Shown: positions 29,683 to 59,173, numbered from the stretch's first letter. The stretch is 60,639 nt of DNA from Deltaproteobacteria bacterium (GCA_030018495.1 JASEFS010000022.1:1-60639); one strand, 5' to 3'. Program-made: numbers and translations. The notes: generated from the sequence alone by a model not told the origin.

Positions 29683-29936
29683 GAAGTGAAAGCCTTGCCC
29701 CCAAGACTCTCCAGGCTATTCCCTTGTTTAACTTTGGCTCAGCTGCGACCCGCTCCTCTTTTTGATCAAACAGTATTCACGAAAAAGCCTGATTTATAAC
29801 AACGGGTGCGGCCAAGTTTACACAAGAGACTTTCCCTTTGCCGCATCAACAGGGGAAAGGGCGCATTCTGCTCTTTCTCTCCGGCCAGCATGGTGTTATT
29901 ATTAAGAAAATTCTGCCGTCCAGGTCACAGCCAAAG

Positions 29937-31388
29937 GTGAGAAAAACTACCTTTAAAATCCGTCGCCGGGTCATCACGTTGTTTCTCTTCTGTGTGATGT
30001 CCGTGGTCGTCTTCGCGGGCTTCAGCTTCCAAATCCACCAGGATATCGGCCGGAGGCTGAGGCTTTTGGAGCTGACCAATGACATGCTCCACAATATTCT
30101 GGAGGCCCGGCGCTTTGAAAAGAATTTCCTCCTTTACAAGCATCCGGCCAGCCTGAAGGAAGCCCTGGACTACGCAGGGCGCGTGGAAGGACTTTATCAG
30201 GAGCATGAGCCGGAAATTCTGAGGATGAAACGTGGTCCCGGCGACCCGGAATTCGGCCGTTTGCTCAGCGAGTACAAAAGCGTTCTGGCCCAGATTCAAC
30301 GCCAAGCCGGGCCGGGCAGTGCGGAAACCGCGCCTGCATCTCCATATTTGGAAGAGTCCGTGCGCAACGTGGGCCAAAATCTGGTGGAGATGACGGAACG
30401 GTGGGAAAAGGAAGAACGGGCCCAGATCGACCGCCTGTTTCAGCGGGCTATGTATCTGTTTTTGATGTCCATTCTTATCTTTATATTTCTGGGCATCTTG
30501 GTGGCCTTTTATCTGGCCCGGTTGCTGGTCCGCCCTATGATCCGGATGCAAAATGCCATGGAAAAAATCGCGCACGGGGATTTCACTTCTCTTCCGGAGA
30601 CCAGCCGGGCGGAAGAATTCCACAGTTTATTCCGGGCCTTCAACCGCATGATACGTGAATTGGAGGAGCATCAGGAAGAGCTGTTGCAGTCCCGCAAGAT
30701 TGCGGCCATCGGCACCCTGACATCGGGAATCGCCCATGAATTGAACAATCCCATCAATAACATCGTGCTCACGGCCGAATCTCTCCAGGAGGATTTCTCG
30801 CAACTCGAACAGAAAGAGGCCTTGGGCCTTATCCATGATATCTTGATTCAAGCGGACAGGGCCTCGGAAATCGTCAAAGGCCTGTTGGACTTCTCCCGCT
30901 CGGAACGGCCGGAATTCGAGCCCCTGGCCATTTCGGCGGTTATCGACGAAACCCTGAAGCTGGTGCGGAACCAGGTGATGCTGTCGGGCATTCAGGTGGA
31001 GAAGGACATCCCGCCCGAGGTGCCCTTGGTTTCCGGCGACCGGAAGAGCCTTCAGCAAGTTTTTCTGAATCTGTTTATTAACGCCATTCAGGCCATGCCG
31101 GACGGCGGCCTGCTGCAGATCGGGGTGCACCAGGAAGACGGCCGATGGCTGAAAATTGAGGTGGGCGATACCGGCGCCGGCATTGACCCTGAGCACCTGC
31201 CCCGCATTTTCGATCCTTTTTACACCACCAAGGAGGTCGGGCGAGGCACCGGGCTCGGCCTGTCCGTGACCTACGGCATCATTGAGAAGCACGGCGGCCA
31301 CATCGAAGCCCATAGTAAAAAGGGCCAGGGAGCCACCTTTACGATAACCTTGCCCATCGCTCAAGAGAAAGCCCCGGATTCGGCCTAA
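29937..31388 (+). CDS. Membrane sensor histidine kinase
   Basis: The kinase has two membrane helices (about 12-32 and 172-195 from GTG 29937) bracketing a helical periplasmic sensor of about 140 residues. A HAMP domain (PMIRMQNAMEKIAHGDF) and a coiled linker follow. The dimerisation/phosphoacceptor motif is GIAHELNNPINNI with H267, and the ATPase domain carries the N box (LFINAIQAMPDGG), DTGAGI, a DPFYTTK segment and GTGLGLSVTYGI. No PAS domain is present. The start is uncertain: a longer frame opens at TTG 29838. It overlaps in function with the regulator gene 7 bases downstream. Confidence 0.92.
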   Translation: MRKTTFKIRRRVITLFLFCVMSVVVFAGFSFQIHQDIGRRLRLLELTNDMLHNILEARRFEKNFLLYKHPASLKEALDYAGRVEGLYQEHEPEILRMKRGPGDPEFGRLLSEYKSVLAQIQRQAGPGSAETAPASPYLEESVRNVGQNLVEMTERWEKEERAQIDRLFQRAMYLFLMSILIFIFLGILVAFYLARLLVRPMIRMQNAMEKIAHGDFTSLPETSRAEEFHSLFRAFNRMIRELEEHQEELLQSRKIAAIGTLTSGIAHELNNPINNIVLTAESLQEDFSQLEQKEALGLIHDILIQADRASEIVKGLLDFSRSERPEFEPLAISAVIDETLKLVRNQVMLSGIQVEKDIPPEVPLVSGDRKSLQQVFLNLFINAIQAMPDGGLLQIGVHQEDGRWLKIEVGDTGAGIDPEHLPRIFDPFYTTKEVGRGTGLGLSVTYGIIEKHGGHIEAHSKKGQGATFTITLPIAQEKAPDSA

Positions 31389-31395
31389 GAAATTT

Positions 31396-32733
<1,338 letters not shown>

Positions 32734-32777
32734 CACTGCCCCTCTCACTTCCTTCCTTTAGCCGTATGGCTGCCTTT

Positions 32778-32792
32778 GTTTCATTCTGAAAC
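32778..32792. promoter_or_regulatory. Enhancer-like dyad 1 (GTTTCA-TTC-TGAAAC)
   Basis: A perfect 6-bp inverted repeat with a 3-base centre, midpoint 32785, about 160 bases upstream of the predicted sigma-54 start. It shares the TTTCA-N3-TGAAA design with dyad 2, 62 bases away (close to six helical turns). Most likely bound by the NtrC-type regulator encoded just upstream; that link is inference. Confidence 0.6.
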
Positions 32793-32832
32793 AGTTTTCA
32801 TGCCATTTTTCCATCCTATCTCCCATCTGGAG

Positions 32833-32857
32833 ATTGTTTATTTCAATATGAAACAAT
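32833..32857. promoter_or_regulatory. Enhancer-like dyad 2 (TTTCA-ATA-TGAAA within a larger palindrome)
   Basis: TTTCA (32841-32845) and TGAAA (32849-32853) are centred at 32847, about 98 bases upstream of the predicted start. An overlapping inverted pair ATTGTTT / AAACAAT (32833-32839, 32851-32857) extends the symmetry. Confidence 0.6.
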
Positions 32858-32918
32858 AATCCCCTAAGATTGCCGGAAATAAATAGTTAACTGCCTATAA
32901 TAATTAGTTTTTTTATTG

Positions 32919-32934
32919 TGGCATAGTTAATGCC
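32919..32934 (+). promoter_or_regulatory. Sigma-54 promoter of the TauE/dikinase/Usp cluster
   Basis: TGGCATAGTTAATGCC has the invariant GG (32920-32921) and GC (32932-32933) separated by 10 bases, with TGGCA fully matching the -24 box and a weaker -12 box (ATGC for TTGC). Transcription would start near 32945, leaving an 87-base leader before ATG 33032. Position relative to the two dyads and the NtrC-type gene fits an enhancer-dependent promoter. Confidence 0.6.
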
Positions 32935-33031
32935 TTTAGGCTCATTGAGGCTAACCGAACCGGGACGCGGCCGGCGACCGGCCGCCCCGGCTGAAGTGTC
33001 CAGGGGCCTAATACCGGTAGGGGAGACCAGA

Positions 33032-33961
33032 ATGTTCCTGAGCTTGTATCTGCCGATTTCCGGCAGCGCTAACAGCATCTTACTGCTCTTTGGCCTGGGG
33101 GGTGCGGTGGGATTTCTTTCGGGCCTGTTCGGGGTCGGCGGCGGCTTTCTCATGACCCCCTTGTTGATCATGGCGGGCATTCCCTCCACGGTGGCGGCGG
33201 CCAGCGATTCCAACCAGATTGTGGCCGCCTCCACTTCCGGCACCTACGCCCATTACCGCTTGGGCAACGTGGATTTCAAAATGGGACTGTTTCTCCTGGT
33301 AGGCGGGGTCATCGGCGGCACGCTGGGAGTGCAGTTTATCAGGGTGCTTCGTGCCATGGGCAATGCCGATTTTGTCATCAAGATTACTTATGTCGTCATG
33401 TTGGGAGTTATCGGCACCTATATGTTTGTGGAAAGCCTCCAAAGCATGCGCCGGAAAACTTACGAGACCAAGACCGGCAAGTCCGCCCGACCTTCGATCT
33501 ATGCCCGGCTGGTCCAGTCCCTGCCCTGGCAAATGAAATTCGAAAAGTCGGGAGTGATCCTGTCGCCTTTGATGCCGCTCATCCTGGGGACGCTGGTGGG
33601 GGTGCTGGCGGCCATCATGGGAGTGGGCGGGGGCTTCATCATGGTGCCGGTGATGGTTTATCTCCTGCGCATGCCCATGCACGTGGTGGTGGGCACGAGC
33701 CTTTTCCAGATTCTCTTCACCTGCATCAACGTCACCATCATGCAGGCCGTCACCAATCATACGGTGGACCTGGTCCTGGCCCTCATTCTGCTGCTGGGCT
33801 CCACCCTGGGGGCCCAGTTCGGGGCGCGGATAAGCCGCCGGCTCAAGGCGGACCAGCTCAAGATTCTTCTGGCTGCCATTGTGCTGGTGGTGATGGTGCA
33901 GATTCTCATCGGCCTCATCATGCCGCCGGATCTGCTGCTGGCGCATAAGGGGGGCCACTGA
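33032..33961 (+). CDS. TauE/SafE-family membrane permease
   Basis: TauE/SafE proteins export sulfite, sulfoacetate or related organic anions. The two inverted repeats of the family are visible: FLSGLFGVGGGFLMTPLL near the N-terminus and LAAIMGVGGGFIMVPVMVY in the second half, with eight or so membrane helices. A hydrophilic cytosolic loop (about 135-175) separates the halves. ATG 33032 is chosen for its GGGGAG site; the longer frame from 32930 starts inside the sigma-54 promoter. It is the first gene of the presumed sigma-54 operon; the next gene begins 1 base after its stop. Confidence 0.88.
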   Translation: MFLSLYLPISGSANSILLLFGLGGAVGFLSGLFGVGGGFLMTPLLIMAGIPSTVAAASDSNQIVAASTSGTYAHYRLGNVDFKMGLFLLVGGVIGGTLGVQFIRVLRAMGNADFVIKITYVVMLGVIGTYMFVESLQSMRRKTYETKTGKSARPSIYARLVQSLPWQMKFEKSGVILSPLMPLILGTLVGVLAAIMGVGGGFIMVPVMVYLLRMPMHVVVGTSLFQILFTCINVTIMQAVTNHTVDLVLALILLLGSTLGAQFGARISRRLKADQLKILLAAIVLVVMVQILIGLIMPPDLLLAHKGGH

Positions 33962-33962
33962 G

Positions 33963-34742
33963 ATGGCGGTCCGGAAAACGGCTTTCTGGAAGGTTTTGGG
34001 TCTGGCGGTGGTTCTGGGGATGCTCGGTTCAGGGCAAGAAGCGGGGGCTGCGGGACTTGAATTCCAACTGGTTCCCCATATCCTGGAGATCGGGGCGTTT
34101 TTTCAGGGTGCGGACATCACCATAACCGGCAGCATTCCGGCCGGCAGCGAGGCCGTACTCGAAGTGTTGGGCCGGACCGGCAACGAGACCTTTATGCGCA
34201 AGGGCCGCCGGGGTTTGTTATGGATGAATGTGGGAGAGTTGGATGTTAAAGGCGCGCCCTCACTTTACCTGGTCATGAGCACCTCTCCGGGTCTTTTGGC
34301 CAACCCTGATATGGAGGTTCCCTGGGGCTTTCCGGCCATAAAAAGTCACATAACCTTGGACGGCGATCTCAAGCCGGATGAACAGGCTGAATTTAAGGGA
34401 CAGTTTCTGGACCTCAAGGAGAGCGAAGGGCTTTACCGCGCTCTGCCCGGGGCTCTCAAGGTTTCCGGGGCCGAAGCCGGCCGGGCCAGCCTTCGGGGAA
34501 CCTTTCACCTGCCGGCCAATGTCAAGCCGGGGACTTACCAGGTCTGCCTCTCGGTAGTCAGCCAGGCGCAGGTCATTGATAAACAGTGCAAAAATCTCAC
34601 CGTCGAAATGGTGGGATTTCCTTCGCTGCTCTGGACGCTGGCCTATGAGCACGGTCTGATATATGGTATCCTGGCCGTAGTAATAGCAATATTTACCGGA
34701 TTTTCGATGGGTTATCTCTTCAAAGGCGGAGGAGGCCATTAA
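33963..34742 (+). CDS. Alph_Pro_TM (TIGR02186-type) exported membrane-anchored protein
   Basis: A signal peptide (to about AGAAG) is followed by a beta-rich extracytoplasmic domain beginning LEFQLVPHILEIGAFFQGADITITGSIP, which is characteristic of the family. A C-terminal membrane helix (YGILAVVIAIFTGFSMGYLF) anchors it. Members are regularly encoded next to TauE-like permeases, as here, and are presumed to act with them; the function is unproven. The orientation predicts a periplasmic domain tethered to the inner membrane. Confidence 0.82.
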   Translation: MAVRKTAFWKVLGLAVVLGMLGSGQEAGAAGLEFQLVPHILEIGAFFQGADITITGSIPAGSEAVLEVLGRTGNETFMRKGRRGLLWMNVGELDVKGAPSLYLVMSTSPGLLANPDMEVPWGFPAIKSHITLDGDLKPDEQAEFKGQFLDLKESEGLYRALPGALKVSGAEAGRASLRGTFHLPANVKPGTYQVCLSVVSQAQVIDKQCKNLTVEMVGFPSLLWTLAYEHGLIYGILAVVIAIFTGFSMGYLFKGGGGH

Positions 34743-34790
34743 GAGCAAAACCATCGAGGCACGCCCGGCGCCGACCGCCGGGCAAGTGAT

Positions 34791-37361
34791 ATGGCCGACT
34801 TGCTGGAAATGTTGAAAAGACTTTGGGGAAGAATCCGGAGGCCCAAGCCTGAAGCGGCGCCTTTCCCGGAGATCTTCGAGCAGTTCCAGACTTTGCTTCA
34901 GGATCATCAACAGGTCATGGAACTTATTGCGGATCTGGGCGAAAAGTCAGGCGGTGAATACATTTTCGACCGCAAGTATCTCGTTGATTTTACGAATACC
35001 CTGCACACCCTGTTGTTGCGCATGGTCAACAGTTTGAACCTCATGGCGGACAAACGCTATATGGACCTGTACACCAGCCTGGACCGCATTTTTCAACCCA
35101 TGGAGGCGGAACTGCGGGGGCGGCTCCTGCTGTCCGAGGAAATGCCCCTGGTCATCGGTTTGAGTGCGCTTCCTCTGGACCACCCCGAACTCACCGGCGG
35201 CAAGGCCAACAATTTAGGGCGCATCAGCCAAAGTCTCAAGCTGCCGGTGCCCAACGGGTTTGTCATCACCACCCGGGCTTACCGGAAGTTTCTGGAGGTC
35301 AACCGGCTTGAGGAGCGCATCCATGCCCGGCTGGAAGCCTGGACTGCCGGAGAACTGGATACAGAGCAGACCTCGCGCCAGATCCAGTACAGCATTCTGG
35401 CCGGTCTGCCTCCCAAAGAGGTGGCGGCGGAGATCAGACGCCAGGCCGCCAGGGATGAGATGTACTGGGCCGTCCGCAGCAGCGCCTATGGTGAGGACGG
35501 CGAATTGACTTTTGCGGGCCTTCATGAGACCCGCCTGCAGGTGCCTTCCAGGAAAATTCTTTCGGCTTACAAAGAGGTGCTGGCCAGTCTTTATTCCTCC
35601 CAAGCCTTGATCTACAGGCAAAGAATGGGGCTTCTGGGAGAAGAAGCCGCTATGGCCGTCCTCTGTCAGGAGACCATCGCCAGCCGCACCGCGGGGGTGA
35701 TCCACACTCTTGATTTGTCCGCCCCCGAGGCAAACTGTCTGGTAATTTACGCCTCCTGGGGTTGGGGCCGTACGGTGGTGGAGGGCCGCGCTCAGGTGGA
35801 TCGCCTGGTGGTGGAAAAAGACCCGCCCTTTCGCGTCAGCGCCGCGGAAATCGCCCGCAAGGAGATCATGGTGAGGCCGAAGCCCGGGGGCGGAGAAGAG
35901 GAAATAGCCGTGCCCCCGGAGCAGCAGATTCTGCCCTCTTTGGCGGATGAAGACGTATCTACCCTGGTAAAGTGGGCCCTGAGCCTGGAGCGCTATTTCA
36001 AGCGGCCCCAGGAGATCGAATGGGCCCAGGACGACGCCGGCGCCCTCTGGATCTTGCAGTCCAGGTCCATGAATATTCCCAGGATGACCATGGCGCTCCA
36101 CGGTAATATCGCCGAGATCACTTCCCGCTATCCCGTCCTGATCAAGGACGTGGGCACCGTAGCCCATGCGGGGGTGGGCTCCGGACCGGTCTGCCGGGTG
36201 GATTCCGATGCCAAGCTCGAACTTTTCCCGGAGGGCGGAGTGCTGGTCATCAAGTACACCGCGCCCTGGCTCACCCCCATCGTGCCCAAGGCCTCGGCCA
36301 TTGTTTCGGAACGGGGTTCCGCCGCGGGGCACCTGGCCACCATCGCCCGGGAATTCCGGGTGCCCACTTTGGTGGGGGTGGAAGGAGCCTATGACCGTTT
36401 GCCGGAGGGCGACGAAGTAACGGTGGACACCAAGCAGCGGGTGATTTATGCCGGGCGGATCAAGGAGCTTTTGCAGTATGAACTGGTGCAAGCTCCCGCG
36501 TTTGAGGAAACCCAGGAGTTCCGGCAACTGAGGCGCCTGTTGAAGCGCATCGCGCCCCTGCATCTCATCGACCCCGAGGCGTCCAACTTCACCCCTCAAG
36601 GCTGCGAGTCAGTACATGACGTTATCCGGTTCATCCATGAAAAGGCCGTGAACGAGCTCATGGACCTGCCCAGGTTTTTAAAACGGTTCAAGGGAGTGCA
36701 GATTTACACCCTGAGCTCTGATGTGCCCATCGGCCTCAAGATTTTGGACCTGGAAGGCGGAATTGATCCTCAGGTACAGGGGAATCGGGTGACGGCAGAG
36801 CACATCCGGTCCTTGCCTTTGAAGGCTCTCTGGGAAGGCGTCTCCGCCCCCGGGGTGTGGAGCACCGAGCCCATCCCGGTGGATTTCAAAGGGATGATGT
36901 CCAGCCTCACCAAGACTTGGGCCGAAAGCCCCGGCACCATGGGCTACACCGGTTTTAACCTGGCGGTGGTCAGCAGGGTTTACATGAACCTGCACCTGCG
37001 CTTGGGCTATCATCTGAACCTGGTGGACGCCCGCATGCACCCGGAGCCGCAGCATAACCACATTTATTTCCGGTTTGTGGGCGGGGTTACGGACATGACC
37101 CGCAGGTCCCGCCGGGCCCAGCTTCTGGCCCATATACTGTCGAAATTCCACTTCAAGGTGGACGTTAAAGGAGATCTGGTGGTGGCCCGGGTGCTCCATC
37201 TTTCCCAGGAGGAAATGCATCTGCGCCTCGAGGTCCTGGGTCAGTTGATCGGGTTCACCCGGCAGCTGGACATCCAATTAAAAAGCGATGCCGACATCCC
37301 GCAGTTTATGGAGTCCTTCTTTCAGCAGCACTCCCCGGATCGGGAAACGCCTTCGGCATAG
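34791..37361 (+). CDS. ATP-grasp/phosphohistidine 'dikinase' with novel C-terminal domain
   Basis: Four parts are visible. Residues 1-115 are a charged helical domain not found in PEP synthase. Residues 125-430 are a PPDK/PEP-synthase N-terminal ATP-grasp domain (TGGKANNLGRIS, AVRSSAYGEDG, TFAGLHET, closing WILQSRSM). Residues 445-560 are the swivelling phosphohistidine domain, with H514 in GSAAGHLATIAREFRVP. Residues 565-856, where PEP synthase has its TIM barrel, are something else that I cannot assign. ATP-driven phosphorylation of H514 is likely retained, but the acceptor is unlikely to be pyruvate. The gene sits in the TauE/Usp operon. Automatic annotation as PEP synthase would mislead. 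Confidence 0.8.
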   Translation: MADLLEMLKRLWGRIRRPKPEAAPFPEIFEQFQTLLQDHQQVMELIADLGEKSGGEYIFDRKYLVDFTNTLHTLLLRMVNSLNLMADKRYMDLYTSLDRIFQPMEAELRGRLLLSEEMPLVIGLSALPLDHPELTGGKANNLGRISQSLKLPVPNGFVITTRAYRKFLEVNRLEERIHARLEAWTAGELDTEQTSRQIQYSILAGLPPKEVAAEIRRQAARDEMYWAVRSSAYGEDGELTFAGLHETRLQVPSRKILSAYKEVLASLYSSQALIYRQRMGLLGEEAAMAVLCQETIASRTAGVIHTLDLSAPEANCLVIYASWGWGRTVVEGRAQVDRLVVEKDPPFRVSAAEIARKEIMVRPKPGGGEEEIAVPPEQQILPSLADEDVSTLVKWALSLERYFKRPQEIEWAQDDAGALWILQSRSMNIPRMTMALHGNIAEITSRYPVLIKDVGTVAHAGVGSGPVCRVDSDAKLELFPEGGVLVIKYTAPWLTPIVPKASAIVSERGSAAGHLATIAREFRVPTLVGVEGAYDRLPEGDEVTVDTKQRVIYAGRIKELLQYELVQAPAFEETQEFRQLRRLLKRIAPLHLIDPEASNFTPQGCESVHDVIRFIHEKAVNELMDLPRFLKRFKGVQIYTLSSDVPIGLKILDLEGGIDPQVQGNRVTAEHIRSLPLKALWEGVSAPGVWSTEPIPVDFKGMMSSLTKTWAESPGTMGYTGFNLAVVSRVYMNLHLRLGYHLNLVDARMHPEPQHNHIYFRFVGGVTDMTRRSRRAQLLAHILSKFHFKVDVKGDLVVARVLHLSQEEMHLRLEVLGQLIGFTRQLDIQLKSDADIPQFMESFFQQHSPDRETPSA

Positions 37362-37370
37362 GAGGAGAAC

Positions 37371-37760
37371 ATGAGCCCCAAGAAGCTCAAAATCATGGTC
37401 CTGGACGACGAACCCATCGTCTGCAAGCGGCTCCAGCCGGCTTTGGAAAAATTGGGTTACGAAGTGGATACCTTTACCCAGAGCCTGGAGGCCCTGCACC
37501 GGATTCGAGACTTTGATTACGATATCATCATCACGGACCTCAAGATGAAGGGCGTTGACGGCATGCGCTTTCTCCAGGAGGCGAAAAAACGCCGACCCGA
37601 AACCGAGGTCATTGTCATTACCGGCTTCGCCACCCTGGAAACGGCCAAAGAGTCTTTTCAGAAGGGGGTGTTCGACTTCATCGCCAAGCCCTTCAAGCTG
37701 AGCGAGATTCAGGAAGTGGTGGCCAAGGCCGCGGCCAAAATTCAGGCTCAAAGCGGCTGA
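37371..37760 (+). CDS. Single-domain response regulator
   Basis: A stand-alone CheY-like receiver of 129 aa: acidic pocket D12-D13-E14, phosphoacceptor D56 in IIITDLKM, conserved T in VITGFA and K in IAKPFK. It has no output domain, so it must act by protein contact or as a phosphorelay step. It is similar in style to the receiver of the NtrC-type regulator in this locus (both contain ITGxA...KGxFxxxxKP). It starts 9 bases after the dikinase gene. Confidence 0.93.
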   Translation: MSPKKLKIMVLDDEPIVCKRLQPALEKLGYEVDTFTQSLEALHRIRDFDYDIIITDLKMKGVDGMRFLQEAKKRRPETEVIVITGFATLETAKESFQKGVFDFIAKPFKLSEIQEVVAKAAAKIQAQSG

Positions 37761-37817
37761 TGTCTGATGATTACAGGACGGTTGCGAGGAACGATATGTC
37801 AGTGGGGGTGATTACGC

Positions 37818-38609
37818 ATGATTAAGGCACTAGTGGCCATTGAAGTGGATCTGGCCTCCAGTTTTGCCATCCGCTATGCCTGTCAACTGAGCGGGCTTAT
37901 TGATATGGAGATTCACCCGGTTTATGTCAAGTTTCCTAATCCTGAAGCGCCCATGACCGGGGTAGGCTGGGTGAGGCATACCTGGGAACGCGAGGTGGTT
38001 GAAACGGGCCGGGAGGAGATCCAGGAGATGCTTGCCTCGGAGAGCGAATCCTGTCCCGTGCTAAAGGAGCCGCGGGTAGTTTATGGCGACCGGGAGCAGG
38101 AATTGCTCCGGATCATGCAGCATGAAAAATTCGGCCTTTACATCGAGGGGGCTCCCTACCCATTTACACCGGCTGCGATTTATCAGAGACTCCGGGGCAA
38201 ATTTTACCAGACGCTTCCCTGTCCCTTGATTTGGCTCAGGGGCATGAGGAAAATCGCCAAGGTGCTGGCCCTTTGCTCTGAACCGGCGGGCGCCGGGGCG
38301 GTGCTGAAAAGCCTGGAAAGCCTTTGGGAAGGATGTCCCACCCCCGTTCATCTGGCCTATCCCGACGCCCCGGGGGGCAACCCGGATATGGCCGCCGCGG
38401 TCGCCGAAGCCGGGGCGCGGCTTAAAGCCAAGCGCTGCCGGGTGATCATTGAAGAGCCGTTTGCGCCGGGGGCCGGCGGGCTGCCGGCTAACATGGCGCA
38501 GGACTTTGGACTGGCAATCCTGGCTTTGAAAAGGGGCGCCAAGAAAGACGACCCCCAATTTCAATGGCTGGCCCGCCAGAGGGTGCCGTTAATGCTGTTG
38601 CTGGCGTGA
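37818..38609 (+). CDS. Universal-stress-like protein, divergent
   Basis: The start MIKALVAIEVDLASSFAIRYACQLS and the alternating strands fit a tandem Usp (Rossmann-like) fold, but the ATP-binding GxxGx9GS signature is not visible in either half. The second half begins near RKIAKVLALCSEP. It may therefore be a non-nucleotide-binding member. It is followed by two more Usp-type genes with gaps of 36 and 44 bases, in one operon with the dikinase and receiver genes. Confidence 0.65.
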   Translation: MIKALVAIEVDLASSFAIRYACQLSGLIDMEIHPVYVKFPNPEAPMTGVGWVRHTWEREVVETGREEIQEMLASESESCPVLKEPRVVYGDREQELLRIMQHEKFGLYIEGAPYPFTPAAIYQRLRGKFYQTLPCPLIWLRGMRKIAKVLALCSEPAGAGAVLKSLESLWEGCPTPVHLAYPDAPGGNPDMAAAVAEAGARLKAKRCRVIIEEPFAPGAGGLPANMAQDFGLAILALKRGAKKDDPQFQWLARQRVPLMLLLA

Positions 38610-38645
38610 TGTGCCGGAAATTTTGCTGAGAAAGGAAGGTGCGGC

Positions 38646-39506
38646 ATGAAAATCCTCTTCGCAGCCGACGAATATCCCTATAGCGCGTATGCGCTCAACG
38701 AAATAATCAGGCTGGCCGTGAACACCTGGGCCGATGTCACCCTGATGGCCGCGGGGCCGGTGGGAATCGAAATCCCGCAGGAGCATCCTCTGCTCCGGGC
38801 CCTGCAGAAATACCGTGAGATTTTCTTAAAAAGATCCGAAACGGAAGGTTCGCCTTATGCCCGAAAAAACTGGCGGCATGAATGGCTCCCTCTGAAAAAC
38901 GGCCTCTTTGAGGAACTGCTGGTGTGCCGGGGTGAAAAAAGGGACGTGCGGGTCTGCTTCCGCAATGACAACCCCGTCTCCGGAATTTTGGCCGAGGCCC
39001 GGGAGGAGGACTCCGACCTTATTATCCTGGGCTGCACCAAAGGGCAGGAGTGCATCTGGCAGGACGCCCCTCCCGTGCCCCAGCGGGTGGTCAACGACGC
39101 CGATTGCTCGGTGCTCCTGGTCAAAGAGGAACAGCCCGTGACGCGCATCCTGGCCTGTTTGGACCAGAGCTATATCAGCCAGGACTCCCTCGAAATGATC
39201 AATCAGTTGGCCACCATCCACAAGGCCCAGGTTGAACTGGTGGGCTTGAGCCAGTCCGGAGACATGAAAAAGGACGTTTACCGGCGCCTCATTGAAATCG
39301 GGGATTATTATGAGGACCGCCAGATCCAGGTGGCCACCCAGCTCACCGAAGTCAAAGATTTCGAAAAGTTTGTGGCCCATGAATTAAAGCAGGACCTGCT
39401 GGCCCTGTGGGTGGGCCGCAAGTCCCTGTTGGACCGTTTCTATCCCCGGGATTGGGTGGGCCGCTTTGTCAGCAAATGCCAGACCTCCGTGCTGGTCATG
39501 CGCTAA
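38646..39506 (+). CDS. Universal-stress-like protein, tandem domain
   Basis: MKILFAADEYPYSAYALNEIIRLA opens the first Usp-like half, which ends with DSDLIILGCTKGQECIWQDAPPVPQRVVNDADCSVLLVKEE. The spacing resembles the family nucleotide loop, but the canonical GxxG is modified (GCTKG). The second half (ARILACLDQSYIS region) closes with LLALWVGRKSLLDRFYPRDWVGRFVSKCQTSVLVM. Likely a stress-responsive cytosolic dimer; ligand unknown. Confidence 0.75.
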   Translation: MKILFAADEYPYSAYALNEIIRLAVNTWADVTLMAAGPVGIEIPQEHPLLRALQKYREIFLKRSETEGSPYARKNWRHEWLPLKNGLFEELLVCRGEKRDVRVCFRNDNPVSGILAEAREEDSDLIILGCTKGQECIWQDAPPVPQRVVNDADCSVLLVKEEQPVTRILACLDQSYISQDSLEMINQLATIHKAQVELVGLSQSGDMKKDVYRRLIEIGDYYEDRQIQVATQLTEVKDFEKFVAHELKQDLLALWVGRKSLLDRFYPRDWVGRFVSKCQTSVLVMR

Positions 39507-39550
39507 TTTCAGCCGGGAGATGAAAAATGATGCGCAATAGAGGTGATTCC

Positions 39551-40402
39551 ATGAAAATTCTGGTGGCTGTGGATAAAAGCGAAGAATCGCGGCAGGCCCT
39601 GCGGTATACCTGCCATCTCCTGGAGCATTTCCCCGCACTGGTCGATGCCCTCTACGTCAAGCCGGATATAGTGGACATAGTGGCGGATAGCTCTTATGCG
39701 CCCTTCGCCACCAAGGGCGACGTGGAGAGGGCGGTGGAAACCGACGCCCAGAAGGTCCTGGAGGACATCATTGAATCCTGCGAGATTTGCCTGGGCGGCA
39801 AGATTCCCTGCCAGCCGAAGGTGGCGGTGGGAGAGCCCGCGGATGAAATCCTCAACTTCGCCCATGAGGGCGGCTACGATATGATCGTCCTGGGCTCCCA
39901 TGGCCGTTCTTCCCTGAGAGGATTCTTTCTGGGCGCGGTGCATGCCAAGATTCTCCATCACGCCTTGCAGCCGGTGCTGATCTTGCGCAATTTTCGCCCT
40001 ATCCAGAAAATCCTGGTGGCCTACCGGGGTTCGCAGTGCGATCAGGGAGCCCTGGAGTTTATCGCCCCGCTGTTTGCCAAAAAGAAGCCGGAAATCACCA
40101 TCATGCACGTTCAGGAGACCGAACTCGGAGAGAGCCCGGAATTTGCCCAAGCCTGTTTAATGACCGGCGAGCAGACTCTCAATCAGTATGACTACAAGCC
40201 CATTAAAAAAATGACTCAGGGCGACTTTGTCGACGAGGTTTTAAAAGCGGTGGCGGTGGGGCGCTACGACCTGCTGGTGCTGGGAGCCTATGGCCATCAT
40301 CGCCCGAAGTACTTGAAAGTCATCAGCGACGAGGCACTTAACCTGGTGCGCCTGACCACCCGGCCGGTCCTGGTGTTTCGCGATTTCAGCGAAAGCTTCT
40401 GA
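39551..40402 (+). CDS. Universal stress protein, tandem UspA domains
   Basis: The first domain is a textbook UspA: MKILVAVDKSEESRQALRYT, then YDMIVLGSHGRSSLRGFFLGAVHAKILHHALQPVLILR, which carries the GxxGx9G nucleotide motif in slightly altered form. The second domain (from IQKILVAYRGS) ends with LLVLGAYGHHRPKYLKVISDEALNLVRLTTRPVLVFR. ATG 39551 is preferred over 39527 because an AGAGGTG site lies within the longer frame. It is the last gene of the cluster. Confidence 0.9.
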   Translation: MKILVAVDKSEESRQALRYTCHLLEHFPALVDALYVKPDIVDIVADSSYAPFATKGDVERAVETDAQKVLEDIIESCEICLGGKIPCQPKVAVGEPADEILNFAHEGGYDMIVLGSHGRSSLRGFFLGAVHAKILHHALQPVLILRNFRPIQKILVAYRGSQCDQGALEFIAPLFAKKKPEITIMHVQETELGESPEFAQACLMTGEQTLNQYDYKPIKKMTQGDFVDEVLKAVAVGRYDLLVLGAYGHHRPKYLKVISDEALNLVRLTTRPVLVFRDFSESF

Positions 40403-56794: not shown

Positions 56795-59173
56795 TTAGGT
56801 GTACCGGCGCTCTGCTTCGGCTACAATCTGCTTGATCTTGAGGACGCTGTCCGGGTTGAGGGAAATGGAATCAATACCCTGCTCCACCAAAAAGGTGGCA
56901 ATTTCGGGATAATCGCTGGGCGCCTGGCCGCAGATGCCTACCTTCGCCCCCACTCTGTGGGCCTTGGCGATCAGATCGGCGATCATGGTTTTCACCGCCT
57001 CATCCCGCTCGTCGAAGAGCTCCGCCAGGATGTCCGAGTCCCGGTCCACTCCCAGAACGAGCTGCGTCAGGTCATTGCTGCCGATGGAAAAGCCGTCAAA
57101 GCGCTCGGCGAATTTTTCCGCCAGAATCACATTGGCGGGGATTTCGGCCATGACATAGATTTCCAGGCCGTTTTCTCCCCTCTTTAAACCATATTCAGCC
57201 ATAACCTCCAGCACCCGGTCCGCCTCTTTCAGAGTTCGGCAAAAAGGAATCATGACGATGACGTTGTCCATGCCGATCTCTTCCCGCACCCGTTTGATGG
57301 CCCGGCACTCCAGGGCGAAGCCCTCTCTGTACCGGTCGCTGTAGTATCGAGAAGCCCCCCGGAAGCCCAGCATGGGATTTTCTTCGCTGGGCTCGAACTG
57401 CCGGCCGCCGATGAGATCGGCATATTCATTGGTTTTGAAATCGCTCATGCGCACGATTACCGGTTCGGGGTACTGGGACGCGGCGATCTTGGCAATGCCC
57501 CGGGCCAGGTTGTCCACGAAATATTCGGTCTTATCGTTATAGCCTCGGGCCAGTTCCTCGATCTGCCGGCGCGCTTCCTTGTCCTCCAGTGCCGCGAACT
57601 TAACCAGGGCCATAGGGTGGACCTTAATAATATTGTTAATTATGAATTCCATCCTGGCAAGGCCGATGCCCTCGCAAGGCAGACGCCACCAGCGGAAGGC
57701 CGCGGCCGGGCTGCCGATGTTCATCATGATGCGGGTCCTGGTTTTGGGCACGTCCTCCAGGTTCATTTCCTTTTCCTCATAAGGGAGGATGCCCTCATAC
57801 ACATAGCCCTGGTCGCCCTCGGCGCAGGAGATGGTTACCTCCTGGCCGTCCTGAAGCACCTCGGTGGCCTTGCCTGTGCCCACGATGGCCGGGATGCCCA
57901 GCTCCCGGCTGACGATGGCGGCATGGCAGGTGCGCCCGCCGTGGTCCGTGACAATGCCCGCGGCCCGGCGCATGATGGGCACCCAGTCCGGGTCGGTCAT
58001 TTCCGTGACCAGTACGGCATTGTCCCTGAACTGCCCGATGTCATGAACATTTTTGATCACGCAGACTTTGCCGGCGGCGATGGCCTCGCCGATGCTGAGC
58101 CCGGAAATCAGGCGCCGGCTGCGCTCTTTGAGCCGGAAACTCTTCATCACCGTGGCTTCCTTCCGGGACTGCACGGTTTCCGGGCGGGCCTGCACGATGA
58201 AAAGCTGGCCCGTGTCGCCGTCCTTGGCCCACTCGATGTCCATGGGGCGGCCGTAGTGGTCCTCGATTTTTTTGGTCCAGCGGGCCAACTGGAGGATTTC
58301 GTCATCGTTCAGGACAAAGGCGCGGCGTTCTTCCCTGGGGGTGTCGATGTTCTTGGTCGGCTTGGTGCCGCCTACCGCGTAGATCATCTTTTTTTCTTTT
58401 TCCCCCAGCGTCTTTTCAATTATGGGTTTCAACTCCGGTCGGTCGAGAAGCGGTTTAAAGGCCATATACTCATCGGGATTTACGGCTCCCTGCACCACGT
58501 TTTCCCCGAGGCCCCAGGCCGCGGTTATAACCACCACGTCCCGAAAGCCTGTCTCCGTGTCAATGGAGAAGATGACGCCTGCTCCGGCCTTATCCGAACG
58601 CACCATCTTTTGCACGCCCACGGAAAGGGCCACTTTCAGGTCGTCAAACCCGTGTTCCTTGCGGTAAGTAATGGCGCGGTCGGTAAACAAAGAGGCATAG
58701 CAGCGGCGGCAGGCTTCAATCAGGGCGGCTTCGCCGGACACATTAAGAAAAGTTTCCTGTTGTCCGGCGAAGCTGGCCTCCGGGAGGTCTTCAGCCGTGG
58801 CGCTGGAGCGCACCGCCACATCCACCTCACCGCCGCCGTAACGCTGGCAGAGTTCGCCATAGGCCTGTTTGATGTCCGCCGCGATGTCCTCCGGAAATTC
58901 CCCGTGCAAGAAGAGGCTGCGGATGGCTTTCCCCACTTCCGCCAAGGGCTTTTTCCCTGTCTTCAGCTCCTGGATCAAGCCGGCGATTCTATCCTTGAGC
59001 CGGTTGTCTTCCAGGAATTTCCAGTAGGCTGCCGCGGTGGTGGCAAAACCGTCCGGGATTTGAATCCCCTCCTCCTTGAGGGTGCGGATCATTTCTCCCA
59101 GGGAAGCGTTTTTGCCGCCTACCAATCCCACATCCTGGGAACCCAGACTCTCAAACCAACGTATATAGGACAT
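56795..59173 (-). CDS. ppsA: Phosphoenolpyruvate synthase
   Basis: PpsA converts pyruvate and ATP to PEP, AMP and phosphate in gluconeogenesis. All three domains are present. The ATP-grasp domain has VGGKNASLGEM and AVRSSATAEDLPEASFAGQQET. The swivel domain has the phosphohistidine in DHGGRTCHAAIVSRELGIPAIVG. The TIM-barrel PEP domain has EGIGLARMEFI, MLGFRGASRYY, SIGSNDLTQLVLGVDRD and catalytic cysteine GICGQAPSDYP. Length 792 aa is standard. ATG 59173 is set by GGAGG four bases upstream. It follows a Usp gene by 66 bases and probably shares its transcript. Confidence 0.97.
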   Translation of the reverse strand: MSYIRWFESLGSQDVGLVGGKNASLGEMIRTLKEEGIQIPDGFATTAAAYWKFLEDNRLKDRIAGLIQELKTGKKPLAEVGKAIRSLFLHGEFPEDIAADIKQAYGELCQRYGGGEVDVAVRSSATAEDLPEASFAGQQETFLNVSGEAALIEACRRCYASLFTDRAITYRKEHGFDDLKVALSVGVQKMVRSDKAGAGVIFSIDTETGFRDVVVITAAWGLGENVVQGAVNPDEYMAFKPLLDRPELKPIIEKTLGEKEKKMIYAVGGTKPTKNIDTPREERRAFVLNDDEILQLARWTKKIEDHYGRPMDIEWAKDGDTGQLFIVQARPETVQSRKEATVMKSFRLKERSRRLISGLSIGEAIAAGKVCVIKNVHDIGQFRDNAVLVTEMTDPDWVPIMRRAAGIVTDHGGRTCHAAIVSRELGIPAIVGTGKATEVLQDGQEVTISCAEGDQGYVYEGILPYEEKEMNLEDVPKTRTRIMMNIGSPAAAFRWWRLPCEGIGLARMEFIINNIIKVHPMALVKFAALEDKEARRQIEELARGYNDKTEYFVDNLARGIAKIAASQYPEPVIVRMSDFKTNEYADLIGGRQFEPSEENPMLGFRGASRYYSDRYREGFALECRAIKRVREEIGMDNVIVMIPFCRTLKEADRVLEVMAEYGLKRGENGLEIYVMAEIPANVILAEKFAERFDGFSIGSNDLTQLVLGVDRDSDILAELFDERDEAVKTMIADLIAKAHRVGAKVGICGQAPSDYPEIATFLVEQGIDSISLNPDSVLKIKQIVAEAERRYT

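Follow-up and report, generated by a model that had tools for sequence, protein, structure and literature searches.

The window analysed here, a 60,639-nucleotide stretch of DNA from a deltaproteobacterium (GCA_030018495.1, JASEFS010000022.1:1-60639), contains a single copy of a six-gene unit that encodes a sensor kinase (HK), an NtrC-type response regulator (RR54), a TauE transporter, its PF09608 partner (AlphTM), a dikinase-like protein (DIK) and a stand-alone receiver (REC). Together with its DNA control sites, the unit is conserved among sulfate-reducing bacteria, and it probably regulates how a sulfur oxyanion crosses the membrane. The explanation that we somewhat favour is that it represents a two-component, sigma-54-controlled sulfur-oxyanion transport module of dissimilatory sulfate/sulfite reducers, in which DIK and REC would control or energise TauE. 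The features of the locus are as follows.

29838..31388, + strand: HK, membrane sensor histidine kinase (Pfam HAMP/HisKA/HATPase_c)
31396..32733, + strand: RR54, NtrC-type response regulator with receiver, AAA+ domain with GAFTGA, and Fis HTH (Pfam, motif check)
32777..32793, no strand: distal dyad TGTTTCATTCTGAAACA, putative RR54 site
32839..32855, no strand: proximal dyad TATTTCAATATGAAACA, putative RR54 site
32919..32933, + strand: sigma-54-type promoter TGGCATAGTTAATGC, TGGCAT-N5-ATGC (GG-N10-GC), predicted start ~32945
33032..33961, + strand: TauE, TauE/TSUP-family membrane transporter (PF01925, E 7.9e-51)
33963..34742, + strand: AlphTM, PF09608 protein, TauE partner (Pfam)
34791..37361, + strand: DIK, PPDK_N ATP-grasp, phosphohistidine domain (His514) and C-terminal domain of ~300 residues
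37371..37760, + strand: REC, stand-alone receiver of 129 aa, no other domain (Pfam)
37818..38609, + strand: U1, divergent tandem Usp protein (profile comparison)
38646..39506, + strand: U2, Usp-family protein (Pfam Usp)
39527..40402, + strand: U3, tandem Usp-family protein (Pfam Usp, two stretches)

The locus and its control sites

A first-pass annotation had described a kinase and an NtrC-type regulator upstream of a tight run of seven same-strand genes, and both descriptions are borne out. HK has two transmembrane segments, an extracytoplasmic part of ~140 residues, a HAMP domain and intact H, N and G boxes (transmembrane and motif check), and its orthologs within the order are 57-76% identical. 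The receiver Asp, the GAFTGA motif and the Fis HTH of RR54 are all intact, and, following established families, RR54 is expected to act as a sigma-54 activator. REC, which retains its phosphorylation residues and is 43% identical to the receiver of RR54, is likewise expected to be phosphorylatable. TauE has eight hydrophobic segments, as a multi-span membrane protein, and AlphTM consists of an N-terminal extracytoplasmic domain and a single C-terminal transmembrane segment. From TauE to U3 the gaps between the seven genes are 1, 48, 9, 57, 36 and 20 bp. The last three products had been called Usp-like, which Pfam supports for U2 and U3; the Pfam search of U1 gave no match, and its membership comes from an hhalign comparison with the U3 family (probability 98.4%). 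An intrinsic terminator was looked for 3′ of U3 and none was found.

The two TTTCA-N3-TGAAA dyads reported earlier are confirmed, with a dyad-to-dyad spacing of 62 bp; the exact motif occurs twice in the window, where 0.06 occurrences are expected. The GG-N10-GC site reported with them is confirmed as a predicted promoter. TauE is likely to start at position 33032, which is preceded by a GGGGAG ribosome site; an in-frame ATG at 32930 was rejected as the start, since it precedes the point where transcription is predicted to begin. The extended dyad, with at most one mismatch, is found at only four places in the 3.46-Mb genome, two of which are at this locus. The two others were rejected as further targets, as they lie inside or overlap ORFs.

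Conservation across the phylum

Since homologous loci were found by the DIK sequence, DIK itself was left out of the counts. TauE and PF09608 genes lie upstream of DIK in 67 of the 68 named homologous loci with enough flank, REC is directly 3′ of DIK in 78/79 named loci, and an NtrC-type regulator is found nearby, in an upstream, divergent or downstream position, in 30 of the 34 named loci whose flanks are wide. The locus L169, in a MAG labelled Zixibacteriota, falls outside the pattern, with REC preceding DIK. This cassette and another in a MAG labelled Myxococcota (L174) possibly reflect transfer outside the phylum or a binning error. DIK homologues are present in each of the 29 genomes of the order that were searched, a single genome having as many as 13 matches, and 13 genomes, our own included, have an orthologous DIK (63-77% identity in the others). 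At their loci the order HK-RR54-TauE-PF09608-DIK-REC-U1-U2-U3 is kept as far as the contigs reach, with occasional insertions; one ortholog (L042, G010:C130) carries an additional HK-receiver pair between U1 and U2. Loci of many other families of the phylum likewise retain the core TauE-PF09608-DIK-REC, as do named loci of GTDB genomes, among them Desulfacinum hydrothermale, Desulfobulbus elongatus, Fundidesulfovibrio agrisoli and Desulfopila sp., and among the sampled genomes the cassette is present in 29 families.

Downstream of REC the loci vary: among 64 of them, Usps follow in 47, further DIK copies in 7 and neither in 10. The earlier label of a stress/export cluster is only partly supported, as 'stress' rests on the Usps, the variable part, and neither Usps nor DIK copies are present in those 10 loci; 'export' was not upheld, its only source being the Pfam name of TauE. 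Desulfovibrionaceae-like and Desulfobulbus-like loci (L168, L182, L184, L186, L187, L188, L204 and L205) have the order DIK-REC-DIK-DIK, with two more DIK copies instead of Usps, which suggests DIK multimers or specialised paralogues.

The control sites are conserved as well. The dyad TGTTTCA-N3-TGAAACA is present within 1 kb upstream of TauE in 53 of 70 loci (1.4 expected) and is paired in 40 of the 70 (0.06 expected), where expectations come from first-order Markov controls and the counts are not independent events because there are close relatives among the 70 loci. Dyads are 48-fold denser upstream of TauE than in the remainder of the same loci, and at 17 of the 70 loci they were not found upstream of TauE. 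The proximal dyad is mostly 69-70, 77-82 or 88-93 bp upstream of the -24 element, preferred distances that differ by about a helical turn, and dyad-dyad distances cluster near 41, 62, 68, 82 and 92 bp. Of the 53 dyad loci, only 27 have a good match to sigma-54 promoters at the distance expected. Within the order, those orthologs for which upstream DNA is available again show the dyad pair together with a sigma-54-type site, often preceding an extra Usp gene placed before TauE. These patterns support the assignment of the paired dyads, the sigma-54-type promoter and the nearby regulator to the TauE operon, as judged from comparative sequence evidence. The initial suggestion that the regulator activates the operon gains from the joint conservation of RR54, dyad pair and sigma-54-type promoter across the phylum. 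The gene set and the dyad pair were sought in other genomes and found; a gene order or dyads lost even in close relatives had been named as grounds against the first reading, and the outcome was the opposite, as both are conserved.

The link between DIK and TauE extends beyond this operon. In eight genomes a TauE gene lies within 10 kb of 16 out of 22 independent DIK clusters, against 1.4 expected, and each of the 11 PF09608 genes of the eight genomes is directly 3′ of a TauE gene. The TauE of the cassette forms a discrete subfamily with ~61-85% identity across the phylum; in the one family searched, its members have at least 68% identity, whereas the majority of the remaining full-length TauE proteins do not exceed 36%. 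An intermediate paralogue class (51-59%) is present phylum-wide and includes a copy on contig C16 of our own genome. One genome of the family f38, G438, has no cassette TauE. Contig C16 of our own genome (G000) carries, at ~6-36 kb (L052, L053), four DIK paralogues, two TauE genes and one PF09608 gene, together with Usps, two HK genes and receivers within 30 kb, that is, the same modules in other combinations.

The cassette is also associated with dissimilatory sulfur metabolism. Within one phylum (394 genomes), dsrA is present in 143 of 145 genomes that have the DIK C-terminal domain and in 54 of 249 that do not (Fisher p = 3e-58), and in 65 of 67 genomes with the cassette TauE compared with 197 of 394 overall (p = 8e-20), the p values not being corrected for descent. 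There are thus 54 dsrA genomes without the DIK C-terminal domain.

The DIK protein

In DIK, PPDK_N and the phosphohistidine domain (residues 479-548) are matched by Pfam. No match to PF02896 (PEP-utilizers_C) was obtained at E≤0.01, either in DIK or in its homologue from the sister cluster L057. Across 80 sequences, no variation is seen at His514, R520, E521 and E400 and hardly any at R229, Q423 and R425; in the C-terminal domain of the same sequences H609, D610, H616 and H741 are invariant, and C605 is nearly so. In the AlphaFold model (pLDDT 86) the ATP-grasp part superposes on PEP synthase 2ols with Z 37.6 and rmsd 2.0 over 302 residues, and the His domain superposes on the pyruvate kinase C-terminal, PPDK and Enzyme I domains with Z 12-18. 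Following established families, DIK is expected to be able to carry phosphate on His514.

DIK shares the ATP-grasp (PPDK_N) domain and the swivelling phosphohistidine domain, with its catalytic His, with PEP synthase and PPDK (PpsA, PPDK). Unlike these enzymes, it lacks PEP-utilizers_C and has a helical N-terminal extension of ~120 residues and a C-terminal domain of its own. The predicted secondary structure of this domain is not that of an eightfold beta-alpha barrel. It has no Pfam match, and the sequence search of the PDB gave only lectin noise. When the C-terminal 300 residues were folded alone (pLDDT 79), no Foldseek match was found at E≤1e-3, and VIA gave Z of at most 8.0 over 62 residues. 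Judging from the model and these searches, the domain appears to have no convincing known relative in sequence or fold. A further PPDK_N/His-domain match in the window (57818-59134, - strand), 32% identical over residues 131-549 only and in an 814-aa frame, is probably a true PEP synthase and offers a contrast to DIK.

Related systems, rival explanations and a possible circuit

The closest described relative is the 'nitrate cluster' of Desulfovibrio (DVU0251-DVU0245 / Dde_0597-Dde_0605; Korte et al. 2014, PMC4001038), which likewise brings together TauE, HK, a stand-alone receiver and a protein with PPDK_N and a mobile domain. Two members of the nitrate cluster, its PtxB-like binding protein and its dual-specificity phosphatase, are absent among the genes of the window at 29838-40402, and the cassette has PF09608 and Usps instead; the cassette also has an NtrC regulator and a dyad pair, neither of which is listed in the gene table of PMC4001038. 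In our own genome the sister cluster L057 lies away from the window (G000:C23, 213-223 kb) and contains TauE, a small membrane protein, an NtrC-type activator, HK, REC, DIK and a dual-specificity phosphatase. It is assigned to the nitrate-cluster type, being matched to DVU0251-DVU0245 by gene content and order and not by sequence comparison. Its DIK is ~33% identical to that of the window, and its TauE belongs to a different subfamily. Counterparts of L057 occur in the genomes G022 and G275, and loci of the nitrate-cluster type include L194 and L195. In L057 and in G022 an NtrC-type activator is situated between TauE and HK; the listing of the Desulfovibrio cluster has no such gene.

Mutants with a transposon in TauE, DVU0250, the receiver or the dikinase-like gene grew alike with or without 100 mM nitrate, and the authors proposed a leaky thiosulfate transporter (PMC4001038). 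Nitrate resistance, an anion-specific phenotype, is common to the mutants of TauE, the receiver and the dikinase-like gene (PMC4001038). G20 mutants were mildly impaired on thiosulfate (unpublished data cited in PMC4001038), and for some genes single-mutant and pooled data conflict (PMC4001038). DIK and REC are placed upstream of, or on, the transporter mainly because their mutants resemble TauE mutants; the phenotype could also arise via TauE expression and not TauE activity.

Two other Desulfovibrio systems share elements with the cassette. The three-component general stress system DVU3305-DVU3303 (PMC3333781) also combines HK, an NtrC-type regulator and a second receiver protein, and its regulon includes Usp genes. 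The second receiver of that system is joined to a Lon protease whereas REC is bare, and no DIK or PF09608 is described for it; identity of our operon with the DVU3305 regulon of D. vulgaris was rejected because of the differing second receiver. Desulfovibrio also has TSUP-family transporter operons that are under sigma-54 control through an activator encoded nearby (PMC4641369), and DVU2957-2964 of D. vulgaris, with the TauE-like DVU2958 and the regulator DVU2956 (PMC4641369/PMC5840216), was considered as a match to our operon; the main text of PMC4641369 does not describe a DIK/REC pair or the cassette dyad. Literature searches for PF09608/TIGR02186 and for dikinase, TauE, Usp and receiver together retrieved no described system except the nitrate cluster. 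The first-pass statement that the locus could not be matched to a named system needs qualification to the extent that this sister is known genetically (PMC4001038), and stands for the cassette itself: neither it nor the DIK C-terminal domain is named or described in the literature searched, most subscription papers being outside it.

These comparisons bear on what DIK and the operon do. DIK could be a small-molecule phosphotransferase like rifampin phosphotransferase (Rph), phosphorylating a metabolite, or the anion once imported, that is bound in its C-terminal domain, with REC and TauE as no more than co-regulated members of that pathway, an explanation that we regard as unlikely. On the one hand, DIK has the same ATP-grasp and His domains as Rph (~860 residues, as in DIK) and PEP synthase, and C605, H609, D610, H616 and H741 resemble a binding or active site. 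The domain order differs, in that the substrate domain of Rph is placed between the ATP and His domains and the extra domain of DIK follows the His domain. On the other hand, DIK is almost always paired with a lone receiver, sister clusters contain HK-REC-DIK triads, and in the nitrate cluster disruption of TauE, REC or DIK leads to one phenotype (PMC4001038).

Less probable still is a general stress operon that resembles the DVU3305 regulon in having Usps as its output, with TauE and DIK as incidental passengers. The presence of three Usps at the locus, and of a fourth that separates TauE from the promoter in several orthologs, would fit such an operon, as would the control of operons with UspA domains by the NtrC-type DVU3305 (PMC3333781). 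However, 17 of 64 loci lack Usps or have DIK copies in their place while TauE-PF09608-DIK-REC is fixed, and in most distant loci TauE is the best conserved protein of the operon. Lastly, some dyad loci have RR54 elsewhere or cut off by contig ends, so that another Fis-type activator might bind the dyads while HK and RR54 control something else. This is very improbable, given that RR54 adjoins the dyads in several orthologs within the order and is kept in the wide loci counted above, and that no further intergenic dyad pair was seen elsewhere in our own genome.

The sulfur-oxyanion transport module that we favour would function in several steps. HK would sense an extracytoplasmic signal and phosphorylate RR54, which, as the conserved anatomy suggests, would bind the paired dyads and activate the sigma-54 promoter. 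The operon would yield TauE and its PF09608 partner, together with DIK and REC. The conserved residues and fold of DIK imply that it would take phosphate from ATP onto His514; phosphorylated REC may control DIK, which would pass the phosphate on or change shape so that TauE works. Such post-translational control or energising of TauE is suggested by the strict linkage and by the mutants of the sister nitrate cluster. The substrate would be a sulfur oxyanion, and the Usps may be an accessory module. The set has the appearance of the self-contained circuit proposed at the outset. A more specific version is offered tentatively, as possible though doubtful: DIK and REC could together be a phosphohistidine device, driven by ATP and gated by the receiver, through which a TSUP anion transporter is powered or gated. 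Such a device would be PTS-like but run on ATP where the PTS runs on PEP, would join the core of a PEP synthase to a novel C-terminal domain, and would be a signature of the dissimilatory sulfite reducers of the phylum.

Little is known so far about the transport of sulfate, sulfite and thiosulfate in sulfate reducers, whose many TSUP genes have no assignable substrates (PMC5840216). The cassette links one TSUP subfamily with a sensor of its own, with a conserved promoter and with a dsrA-associated phosphotransferase family. It predicts that the Desulfovibrio nitrate-cluster result would be one case of a general rule, that TauE needs DIK and REC, and it bears on the nitrate control of souring.
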